Source: Fibrobacter sp. UWB13
GTDB taxonomy: Bacteria > Fibrobacterota > Fibrobacteria > Fibrobacterales > Fibrobacteraceae
Direction of reading: 5' to 3'
Assembly (NCBI RefSeq): GCF_900177805.1
Contig: NZ_FXAX01000001.1
Coordinates: forward strand, 1-64,000
Length of the DNA stretch: 64,000 bases
Both the position numbers and the translations under genes were made by a program. Positions 55,580-61,311 of this stretch are shown here, piece after piece. Each line of letters opens with the position of its first letter. The stretch's first letter is position 1. The notes beneath the pieces were generated by a model. That model did not search any database and was not told the DNA's origin. It saw only the letters and a program-made list of their open reading frames with translations.

Positions 55580-56249
55580 GCTTTCTGAATATACCTTTAT
55601 TTATGCGGGTTCGCAAGCGGTTTGACGCTGAAAAAATCAGAAGAATTGGATGGATTCCTGGGATTTGGGCCATTTTTTTTGGAGCCCTGGTGCTGCCGAA
55701 ATGACTGTAGATTTCCAGGAATTCCCTGTCGGAGACGCTCAGCAGGCAGACTGTGGAGCGGGGGTCGATTAAATTGGCGATTCGTCGTCGGACGGCATTG
55801 TGCCTTTATTGCGCCGTGGATTCCGTAATCCCCGATGCTTCAGGGTGACCACTGGATGCGGATTTCTTGAAGAAGATGAAACTCTGGTGGTTTGAAACTA
55901 GCTGCGTGCCCCTTGGCCGGGAATACACATTTACTTATATTACAATCGTAATTCGATAATCCTCGCGACAGTCGACATAGACCATTTGGTCCGTACGTGC
56001 ATTCGCGGCGGGGCCCATCAACCTTCTTGACGGTCCTGTTGGATAGCTGGTAGGAACACGACCTACTCGAGTTCACTCGAAAGAGTGGCAAGTAACGCCG
56101 GGGAAAGCCCCCGCCAACAGAATTGCAAGATTATCCCATTCCACGCAAATCGTGGAAACTCCATTACAAAACAAAAAAGAACGGGCGTATAGTGCATTGT
56201 TTATACGGTGTATTCGCACCGTTGTGCAACCATTTTTAAGAGGATATCT
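55580..56249 (+). other. 670-bp hairpin-rich region before the YhcG-type nuclease
   Basis: No convincing gene. Hairpins in a row: GACC/GGTC (55980-55991), GTAGG/CCTAC (56050-56066), the palindrome ACTCGAGT (56065-56072), CGGGG/CCCCG (about 56099-56113), CCACG/CGTGG (56141-56155) and ACGGTG/CACCGT (56205-56222). A possible untranslated RNA or long regulatory leader. I could not match it to a known RNA class. Ribosome-binding AAGAGG precedes the gene. Confidence 0.45.
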
Positions 56250-57335
56250 ATGTCGAAAAAATCTATCAACATCTTGGACAAGGATTACATTCACTGGGTC
56301 AAGGAACTTTCTTCCCGTTATCGCAAGAGCCAGATCAAGGCTGCGGTAAAGGTAAATAGTGAAATGCTGCGCTACTACTGGGAATTGGGGCGCGATATTG
56401 TAACCAAGCAGGCTGAAAATAAATATGGGAGCAACTTTTATGGTACGCTTAGTACTGATTTAAAGAAAGCAATCCCTAACGCCGAAGGGCTGTCTCCATC
56501 GAATATTCGCTATTCTAAAAGATTTTTCCAACTATATAGTCCTGTCTTGGAAAATCTTCAGCAGGTTGCTGAAAAATCTCAAAGTCCTTTAGAACGACTT
56601 GAATCTACATTATTCTCTGTTCCGTGGGGGCACCACATGCTGCTCATCGATAAGTGCTCAGACGCCCCACAAAAGGCCCTGTTTTTTGCCCGCCAGACGA
56701 TAGAAAATGGCTGGAGCCGTTCGTCCCTTCTGAATGCGCTTTCTACCGATCTTTACGAGCGCCAGGGAAAGGCTTTGACGAATTTTGAACGGACTCTCCC
56801 TGCCGAAACAAGCGATTTGGCTCAAGAACTGACGAAAGATCCTTACAATTTCGCGTTTACGGGTATTACGGGTCGCTACAACGAAAAACTGCTGAAAGAT
56901 AGCCTGCTGAACAACATTACCCGTTTTCTTGTGGAATTGGGCACGGGCTTTGCCTATGTCGGCAGAGAATATGGCATTATGGTGGGCGAAAGGGAGAAGT
57001 TCATGGATTTGCTTTTTTACAACCTGAATCTCTCTTGCTATGTCGTTGTCGAGGTGAAAATCGGGCGCTTTGAATTTGCCGATATCGGGCAACTGGGCGG
57101 ATACATGGTGGCATGCAATCACATCCTTAAAAAGGAAGGGCGCGACAACCCGACAATCGGTCTGCTGATTTGCAAGGAAAAGGACAAGGTGCAGGCACAG
57201 TACGCACTGGAATCAAGTACGCAACCTATCAGCATTTCGGAATATGAATTGGAAAAATTCTACCCTGAAAAGGTTGAAGGCACAATGCCCTCTATTGAGG
57301 AAATTGAGAAAAGATTGTGCGAAGTGCCGCTGTAA
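56250..57335 (+). CDS. YhcG-type PDDEXK nuclease (DUF1016 family)
   Basis: 361 residues from ATG 56250 (AAGAGGATATCT ahead). The N-terminal DUF1016_N helical domain (about 10-180, YRKSQIKAAVKVNSEMLRYY, SNIRYSKRFFQLY, PWGHHMLLIDKC) precedes the PDDEXK nuclease domain: ELGTGFAYVGREYGIMVGERE (about 230-250), DLLFYNLNLSCYVVVEVKIG with D and E-x-K as catalytic residues, GQLGGYMVACNHI and GLLICKEKDK. The family is linked to recombination, phage defence or nucleoid-related roles in different studies. The C-terminus ends KRLCEVPL. A large structured leader precedes it. The convergent GNAT gene is 4 bp away. Confidence 0.93.
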   Translation: MSKKSINILDKDYIHWVKELSSRYRKSQIKAAVKVNSEMLRYYWELGRDIVTKQAENKYGSNFYGTLSTDLKKAIPNAEGLSPSNIRYSKRFFQLYSPVLENLQQVAEKSQSPLERLESTLFSVPWGHHMLLIDKCSDAPQKALFFARQTIENGWSRSSLLNALSTDLYERQGKALTNFERTLPAETSDLAQELTKDPYNFAFTGITGRYNEKLLKDSLLNNITRFLVELGTGFAYVGREYGIMVGEREKFMDLLFYNLNLSCYVVVEVKIGRFEFADIGQLGGYMVACNHILKKEGRDNPTIGLLICKEKDKVQAQYALESSTQPISISEYELEKFYPEKVEGTMPSIEEIEKRLCEVPL

Positions 57336-58920: not shown

Positions 58921-59199
58921 CTAAAAAGATTCTTTGATGATTACACCTCCGTTGAGATAACGGTGTATAAGGCTGTTAATGAGTGTCTGGTAGCTTGTAC
59001 CAAGACGTGCGGCCTTAGCCTTCATACCTTCGATATCGGCGTCTTTCATTCGGATGGTTATGTTGTGAGCCGACCCGCGGATTGATGCTTTAATGCGGTC
59101 CACTTCTTCTTTGGGAAGAGGTTCTGTATCGCCTCGTTCAATGGCTTCCATGAGGAGTCTTTCTTCTTCATCCATCGGATCAAATTCTGAGTTCGCCAT
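58921..59199 (-). CDS. BrnA/CopG-like antitoxin
   Basis: 92 residues: an acidic N-terminal half (MDEEERLLMEAIERGDTEPL) and a C-terminal ribbon-helix-helix-like part (ITIRMKDADIEGMKAKAARLG then TSYQTLINSLIHRYLNGG), matching CopG-type antitoxins that pair with BrnT-like toxins. The 20-bp overlap with the toxin gene and the toxin-first order fit this class. The start is ATG 59199 inside the toxin's 3' end. Confidence 0.85.
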   Translation of the reverse strand: MANSEFDPMDEEERLLMEAIERGDTEPLPKEEVDRIKASIRGSAHNITIRMKDADIEGMKAKAARLGTSYQTLINSLIHRYLNGGVIIKESF

Positions 59200-59476
59200 T
59201 TTCGTACCTCCGCTGATAGACTCGGTTTGGAAAAGCCGTTTTTAGAAAGAATGTCCCGTCTTTTTCTTCCACAAACGGAACGCAGATGACGTAACCCTTG
59301 ATAATGACAAGAAACATCCGCTGGCCTTCGTGGTCCCGCTGGTTTCTCACCAATTCGGGCTTAAAACGTTCGGCAAGAATTTCTTGCCTGACATCTTCCA
59401 TGACGACTCCGTGTTTTTCGAGTACCTTTTGGGCTTTTTCCTCATCAAATCGTACTTTTATATCTGTAATATACAT
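59180..59476 (-). CDS. BrnT-like type II toxin
   Basis: 98 residues: VRFDEEKAQKVLEKHGVVMEDV (about 9-30) is the BrnT signature (acidic residue, Lys, KHG). The central FLVIIKGYVICVPFVEEKDG and the C-terminal TAFPNRVYQRRYENGEL fit the ribonuclease fold of the family. The pair is followed by the antitoxin gene. Upstream lies AT-rich DNA. Target RNA is inferred from BrnT. Confidence 0.82.
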   Translation of the reverse strand: MYITDIKVRFDEEKAQKVLEKHGVVMEDVRQEILAERFKPELVRNQRDHEGQRMFLVIIKGYVICVPFVEEKDGTFFLKTAFPNRVYQRRYENGELRI

Positions 59477-60493: not shown

Positions 60494-61252
60494 TCAAGGT
60501 TGTTTCTCAAACACTATTTTGCTGAATGTTTTGTAGTGGTCGGTGGTGTAATAGATGTTACAGCCGCTACTATAGACGAGGCGGTTTGTGCCGCGATTGT
60601 TTCCGAAGTAATCGACATCGGCTTCGTAGTAATACGCTGTCGGGAGCTTTCCTTCGCGGTTGTCGAAGTAGTCGCCGCCAATCATCACGCCGAGCGTTGT
60701 ATGCGGATTGAAATTCCATTTCACAAATGTTTTGCCGGTCTTTTGTTCGTAAAGCTTTTTACCCTCGCTTTTGGTTACATAATAGGAGGGCAGGCGGTCG
60801 TTGTCGCAGATGTACTTTGCAACATGGAGTCTTGAGGTGTATTCCTTTTCGGCGGGATTTTCTTTTAGCAGGCAGACTTTTTTGTTGCGGGGAGCATCAT
60901 CGGGGGTTGTGTAAACTACGTATATGTCGAATGCGAATGCCAACGCGATGCATATCGCGACTATCACAGCAATCTTGGATTTTTTCGCCTTGCGATAATT
61001 TTTGCGCACCGGGGAGGACGCGGCTTGTTCTTCTCGCGAGGCTACACCTTCAAGAATTCCTTTTTCGATTCTTGCACCTTTCTCGTTTTTGCCGAAACTG
61101 CAAATGATGATTGTATCACCGACTTTTGGCGGTCTCACGGGATGCCCTAAAGCAGAAATATGGACAAAGTACTTGGTCCCATTTGCTGTGGCGAAACCGA
61201 ATCCTTTTTCTTCGTTCCATTGCGTGACGGTAGCTTTATTTGTAATGGGCAT
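60494..61252 (-). CDS. Cold-shock domain - membrane helix - barnase-type RNase fusion
   Basis: 252 residues from ATG 61252 (AAAGG 8 nt ahead; a longer ATG at 61267 is possible). N-terminal cold-shock domain (about 3-70) with RNP1 KGFGFAT (16-22) and RNP2 YFVHISAL (28-35), so it should bind RNA. A basic stretch (RKNYRKAKKSK) precedes one membrane helix (94-115), predicting N-in/C-out. The C-terminal domain (about 140-247) is a microbial guanyl-RNase of the barnase type: K161 (VTKSEG), R199 (NREGKLP), E210 (YYEADVDY), R220 and R224 (NNRGTNRLVYSS) and H239 (TTDHYKTF) align with barnase K27, R59, E73, R83, R87 and H102. The catalytic set is complete. No barstar-like inhibitor gene is adjacent, consistent with an RNase domain outside the cytoplasm. 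Confidence 0.9.
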   Translation of the reverse strand: MPITNKATVTQWNEEKGFGFATANGTKYFVHISALGHPVRPPKVGDTIIICSFGKNEKGARIEKGILEGVASREEQAASSPVRKNYRKAKKSKIAVIVAICIALAFAFDIYVVYTTPDDAPRNKKVCLLKENPAEKEYTSRLHVAKYICDNDRLPSYYVTKSEGKKLYEQKTGKTFVKWNFNPHTTLGVMIGGDYFDNREGKLPTAYYYEADVDYFGNNRGTNRLVYSSGCNIYYTTDHYKTFSKIVFEKQP

Positions 61253-61311
61253 AGGGAAACCTTTCATTGTAGGTAATTGCTTGTTAAATGTAAAAAGAAA
61301 CTCTTGTAGCT

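Follow-up and report, generated by a model that had tools for sequence, protein, structure and literature searches.

A cold-shock domain joined through a single membrane helix to a barnase-type ribonuclease domain in Fibrobacter

Cold-shock domains (CSDs) are cytoplasmic nucleic-acid chaperones, and barnases are secreted enzymes. A gene of Fibrobacter sp. UWB13, lying in the 64,000-nucleotide stretch of DNA analysed here (the window), joins the two in one conserved polypeptide that would place them at opposite sides of a membrane, and thus raises the question of why an inner nucleic-acid-binding domain should be kept on an exported protein. The same question arises for proteins made of a CSD, a transmembrane (TM) helix and an excalibur domain, which are seen on many plasmids; in the fusion, an enzyme that is simple to assay takes the outer position, and the question is testable. 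Both parts are known, as is the general plan of a CSD, a TM helix and an outer domain, and the enzyme class is ordinary. The CSD–TM–barnase combination itself seems undescribed, and what is new would be the way in which known parts are joined, not the kind of system. A search of the open literature, outside which most subscription papers lie, did not turn it up, in agreement with the preliminary description of this locus, which knew of no report of such a fusion.

The fusion gene and its two nucleic-acid domains

The fusion gene occupies positions 60494–61252 on the minus strand (start ATG 61252–61250, stop 60496–60494) and encodes 252 amino acids comprising a CSD, a basic linker, a TM helix, a further linker and a barnase-type RNase domain. 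The coordinates and length given previously were correct and the strand had been left unstated; a plus-strand reading of the interval is interrupted by stops. The N-terminus reads MPITNK with a start position conserved among relatives, and a Shine-Dalgarno-like AAAGG (61260–61264, minus) lies 7 nt ahead of the ATG. Further upstream, a sigma-70-like promoter match (TTTACA-17-TACAAT, 61266–61294, minus) is weak and matches the consensus only, four such matches being found where 1.4 are expected. The gene is monocistronic; its neighbours are a convergent SDR gene and a divergent ilvC, and in F. succinogenes-like genomes it mostly adjoins ilvC and the SDR gene and is likewise transcribed singly. 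Because the same single-ORF architecture recurs in 21 genomes, an assembly artefact or a chance open reading frame was ruled out.

Searches with PF00545, against the PDB and with Foldseek identify the C-terminal domain (residues 137–249; 60506–60844, minus) as a barnase/binase-type guanyl RNase, for which guanyl-specific activity is predicted. The PF00545 (Ribonuclease) profile matched residues 148–246 at E 2.1e-14, scoring 54.2 bits where the cut-off is 24, and phmmer matched binase and barnase in the PDB at 2.6e-17 to 1e-16, bearing out the family assignment of the preliminary description. All six of the barnase active-site residues claimed there are present, with K161, R199, E210, R220, R224 and H239 corresponding to barnase K27, R59, E73, R83, R87 and H102 (numbering from the PDB alignment). 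Modelled by itself with AlphaFold2, at moderate confidence (pLDDT 66), the RNase domain shows helices and strands in the order known from barnase; the top 50 Foldseek hits to this model are all barnase or binase entries or barnase chimeras, headed by barnase (E 9e-8, TM 0.70), in agreement with the barnase fold. A model of the whole protein is of low quality (pLDDT 44), with Foldseek still ranking barnase first and matching cold-shock domains weakly. An alignment of 61 non-identical RNase domains took in 21 fusions, one TM-only form, two outgroups from the plasmid collection and, for the remainder, lipoproteins. In it, the equivalents of E73, R83, R87 and H102, together with those of D54 and Y103, are invariant in 61/61, and relatives have therefore not lost the catalytic residues; the K27 equivalent is present in 21/21 fusions and that of R59 in 19/21. 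With barnase and binase the fusion shares the fold, about 43% structural-alignment identity, the complete active site and a predicted extracytoplasmic action, whereas it differs from them in having an uncleaved TM helix behind a CSD and an extra cysteine pair, and in that no barstar gene was found for it.

The CSD (residues 1–70; 61043–61252, minus) is assigned from a sub-threshold PF00313 match, from solved CSDs in the PDB and from dN/dS. The PF00313 match (E 0.0015; 18.8 bits, and 20.8 bits in a second search, both under the cut-off of 27) is limited to residues 6–35, and the PDB entries matched at just E 0.004–1. RNP1 (KGFGFA, residues 16–21; 61190–61207, minus) keeps K16 and F20 in 22/22 fusions, with position 18 being Phe or Tyr and G17 varying in 4/22, while RNP2 (YFVHIS, residues 28–33; 61154–61171, minus) keeps F29 in 21/22 and H31 in 22/22. 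The Trp preceding RNP1 in CspB (W8) is Q11 in the fusion. In the full-length model the domain has five strands at a pLDDT of about 60 or lower, and the Foldseek matches to CSDs are weak (5jx4, prob 0.91, E 0.4). The intact CSD of the preliminary description is thus upheld for RNP1 and RNP2 and needs qualifying for the domain as a whole, which is divergent: it has RNP1, RNP2 and, going by a weak model, possibly OB-type strands in common with CspA and CspB, but unlike them it has diverged past the Pfam cut-off, is attached to the membrane and has W8 replaced. The fusion is also the best CSD match in its own genome (G000), which has no protein above the Pfam cold-shock cut-off; it is unusual for a genome to lack a canonical Csp.

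Predicted topology and the search for barstar

The basic stretch RKNYRKAKKSK (residues 83–93; 60974–61006, minus), predicted to lie on the cytoplasmic side, leads into the sole TM helix of the protein (residues 94–112; 60917–60973, minus; Kyte-Doolittle 2.69), matching the single helix after a basic stretch noted earlier. Seven Lys/Arg residues fall within the 15 residues preceding the helix and three after it, and each of the 21 fusions checked (21/21) has one hydrophobic segment preceded, over 15 positions, by 3–7 basic and almost no acidic residues. Within the RNase domain, Cys149 (60806–60808, minus) and Cys231 (60560–60562, minus) are the halves of a predicted disulfide, and both occur in 21/21 fusions. 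In all intact homologues the two cysteines are jointly present or jointly absent, the pair being absent from three lipoproteins of genus g17 and from the two outgroups; only one gene, which is frameshifted, departs from this pattern. This both-or-neither pattern is as expected for a disulfide. The genome itself encodes an exported DsbA-like lipoprotein with a CPYC motif; VKOR was looked for there and is absent. A frameshifted lipoprotein barnase in genome G028 (L057) is possibly a decaying paralogue.

No match to barstar (PF01337) was obtained in the genome of the window or in 60 of the 61 genomes searched. The one match, a 315-aa repeat/TM protein encoded on a 7-kb contig, is probably contamination, the genome concerned (G028) being flagged as 8% contaminated. 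Neither a barstar nor any other candidate inhibitor gene adjoins the fusion gene, so that the fusion departs from the barnase–barstar pair in standing without a cognate barstar gene, as the preliminary description had noted for the neighbourhood and as now holds for the whole genome. Cytoplasmic activity of barnase is toxic where no barstar restrains it (PMC8403359). The existence of lipoprotein paralogues, the co-conserved cysteines, the missing barstar and sister proteins that bear an excalibur domain, together with the positive-inside pattern, suggest that the RNase lies outside the inner membrane and the CSD inside the cell, which we consider probable. Excalibur domains are regarded as extracellular. 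The topology of a periplasmic RNase and a cytoplasmic CSD, previously drawn from the positive-inside rule, is thereby backed by several further lines.

Distribution, relatives and selection

Protein and family-profile searches with ORF reconstruction place the one-ORF fusion in 21/111 Fibrobacteraceae genomes from three genera: 19 Fibrobacter genomes, one of them with two copies, and one genome in each of two other genera (G154, G167). PF00545 matches occur in 73/168 Fibrobacterota genomes searched, all but one of them Fibrobacteraceae, and by these counts most fusion carriers have a second barnase, whereas the genome studied here has the fusion only. A scan of genome contigs from 84,980 species, which detects close relatives only, returned relatives in Fibrobacter alone; since this shallow scan did not pick up the fusions of G154 and G167, absence outside Fibrobacteraceae is not established by it. 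A scan of viral contigs with the fusion alignment found no relative, phage tblastn and plasmid megablast gave no match, and plasmid tblastn gave four barnase-only records, of which the two inspected (L093, L094) are without a CSD.

Most RNase-only homologues are lipoproteins, built from a short signal peptide, a lipobox Cys, a Ser-rich linker and the RNase domain. Those of Fibrobacteraceae (for example L049, L050 and L055) share with the fusion the RNase subfamily (~60% identical), the cysteine pair and export, but differ in their signal peptide and lipobox anchor, the Ser-rich linker, the lack of a CSD and an R59 position that is not conserved. Two further proteins (L010, L090) are CSD-less, Lys-rich TM-RNases that fall inside the fusions in the RNase tree (support 100/97), a tree of few columns with many forks open, on which all labels need a minimum of three changes. 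Their nested position indicates that the CSD was lost once there, and neither a cryptic CSD nor a remnant of one was found near them. An internally deleted fusion copy is represented by L029/L048, at the same locus as L118.

The CSD also occurs in other membrane contexts. CSD–TM–excalibur proteins are encoded in three Fibrobacter genomes (L043, L044 and L125 in G006, G024 and G145), and the architecture is found on Aeromonas and Acinetobacter plasmids as well; an N-terminal CSD, a basic linker, a single TM helix and a C-terminal domain that would point outward are common to these proteins and the fusion, but their outer domain is a 36-residue calcium-binding excalibur and that of the fusion is an enzyme. 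In CSD–DUF1294 proteins a CSD is joined to membrane segments, DUF1294 being a membrane domain; the fusion has a membrane-linked CSD in the same way, without a DUF1294 match. Five Fibrobacteraceae CSD–TM proteins (L045, L046, L047, L119, L123) have degenerate RNP motifs and no outer domain. The fusion probably originated when a lipoprotein-type barnase was grafted behind a pre-existing CSD–helix module.

Both the CSD and the RNase domain are under purifying selection, with dN/dS in most pairs at 0.03–0.13 for the CSD and 0.02–0.17 for the RNase; constraint on the linker and helix is much weaker. In the comparison of the window's fusion with L033, dN is 0.79 in the linker–TM stretch and 0.019 in the CSD. 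As the helix and linker of the window's clade are unrelated to those of L033 and the CSDs almost identical, the presence of the helix is conserved and its sequence is not. Aligned as 60494–61252 against L033:693–1451, the two genes have near-identical CSDs and unrelated middles, as if recombination had exchanged the centre of the gene.

A proposed tethered periplasmic RNase and the competing explanations

The explanation that we favour, and consider reasonably probable, is that the protein is a Sec-inserted, membrane-tethered periplasmic guanyl RNase that digests external RNA for nutrients, with the CSD as an auxiliary part. It builds on the computed domains, active site, conservation, selection and relatives, from which we infer topology, disulfide, activity, salvage and any role of the CSD. 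The fusion would be a type II (N-in, C-out) inner-membrane protein whose single helix serves as an uncleaved signal anchor, leaving the CSD in the cytoplasm while Sec passes the RNase domain across in unfolded form. On the outer side, the RNase would fold, probably gain the C149–C231 disulfide and turn active, and we propose that no barstar is needed because activity arises only there. This suggests how a lethal RNase could be kept without barstar, by means of an uncleaved anchor and perhaps a disulfide. The tethered, guanyl-specific endo-RNase would then degrade RNA that enters the periplasm, which in the rumen would come from lysed cells, so that phosphate and nucleosides can be salvaged, as is also proposed for the lipoprotein barnases of its relatives. 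In Bacillus, phosphate starvation induces secreted N1/T1 RNases (PMC5021464), which by analogy suggests a salvage role here. Among the roles put forward in the preliminary description, RNA scavenging fits best, and it is one that we infer. For the CSD we consider an auxiliary role most likely: on the inner face it would bind single-stranded nucleic acid, such as the protein's own or a nearby mRNA, so that synthesis stays at the membrane. Against this reading stands the constraint on the CSD, which is of about the strength seen for the RNase and would be superfluous in a pure anchor.

That constraint would be accounted for if the CSD were a working sensor that binds single-stranded RNA or DNA inside and alters the activity, clustering or shedding of the outer RNase, or if it were part of an uptake route. 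The contact residues K16, F18/Y, F20 and H31 are kept in 22/22 fusion CSDs and in 3/3 Fibrobacter excalibur versions and lost in four Fibrobacter CSD–TM proteins without an outer domain, a contrast that is a lead and no test because few proteins are compared and they are related to one another; as a lead, it may count against a wholly useless CSD. A ComEC homologue in the genome would suit uptake, but ComEC also occurs in 10/14 control genomes and is hence unspecific. L010 and L090 lost the CSD yet kept the anchored RNase, and TM helix and linker are freely swapped between clades, unlike a signalling helix, so that their free evolution does not suggest transmembrane signalling. These two observations do not support the earlier proposal that RNA binding inside is coupled to degradation outside, and we regard a sensory CSD as unlikely.

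Conversely, the CSD could be no more than a cytoplasmic tail that came with a convenient signal anchor, with no nucleic-acid role here. The sub-threshold PF00313 match, the replaced CspB Trp position, the variable G17 and the loss of the CSD in two relatives would all fit, but its low dN/dS and the retained key contact residues would not, and this too we judge rather improbable. We give a lower likelihood still, and a small one, to a membrane-spanning module whose inner CSD holds single-stranded nucleic acid, whether imported or from its own or neighbouring mRNAs, while the outer RNase processes RNA. If this were true, inside binding and outside cutting would be parts of one RNA-handling or uptake process, and the related proteins with an excalibur domain would represent another form of this module.

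A cytoplasmic RNase that cuts cellular RNA bound by the CSD, restrained by some inhibitor or by weak activity, would offer the simplest reason for the fusion, as RNA-binding and RNA-cutting domains would share a compartment, an argument that no tool result favours. It is opposed by the positive-inside pattern, the lipoprotein paralogues, the cysteine pair and an intact active site in a genome with neither a barstar nor an adjacent candidate inhibitor gene, given the toxicity of cytoplasmic barnase, and is very improbable. A contact-dependent or released weapon, the action against competitors once suggested, is the least credible reading: barnase domains are common warheads of polymorphic toxins, Fibrobacteres included (PMC3482391), but this RNase is conserved and not polymorphic, is tethered to the producer's own inner membrane, and has no delivery domain and no immunity gene in the protein or adjoining it, and PADLOC gave no match.

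Two other loci in the window deserve mention. Two small overlapping genes at 58921–59476 (minus) resemble a BrnT/BrnA-type toxin–antitoxin pair, the BrnT-like match scoring 26.7 bits, under the cut-off of 34.5, and the antitoxin match weaker still; the pair is probably mobile because it is present in G014 (98.9% identical), whereas a search of G004 between the genes that flank it here did not find it. A YhcG/DUF1016-type PDDEXK nuclease gene lies at 56208–57335 (plus).
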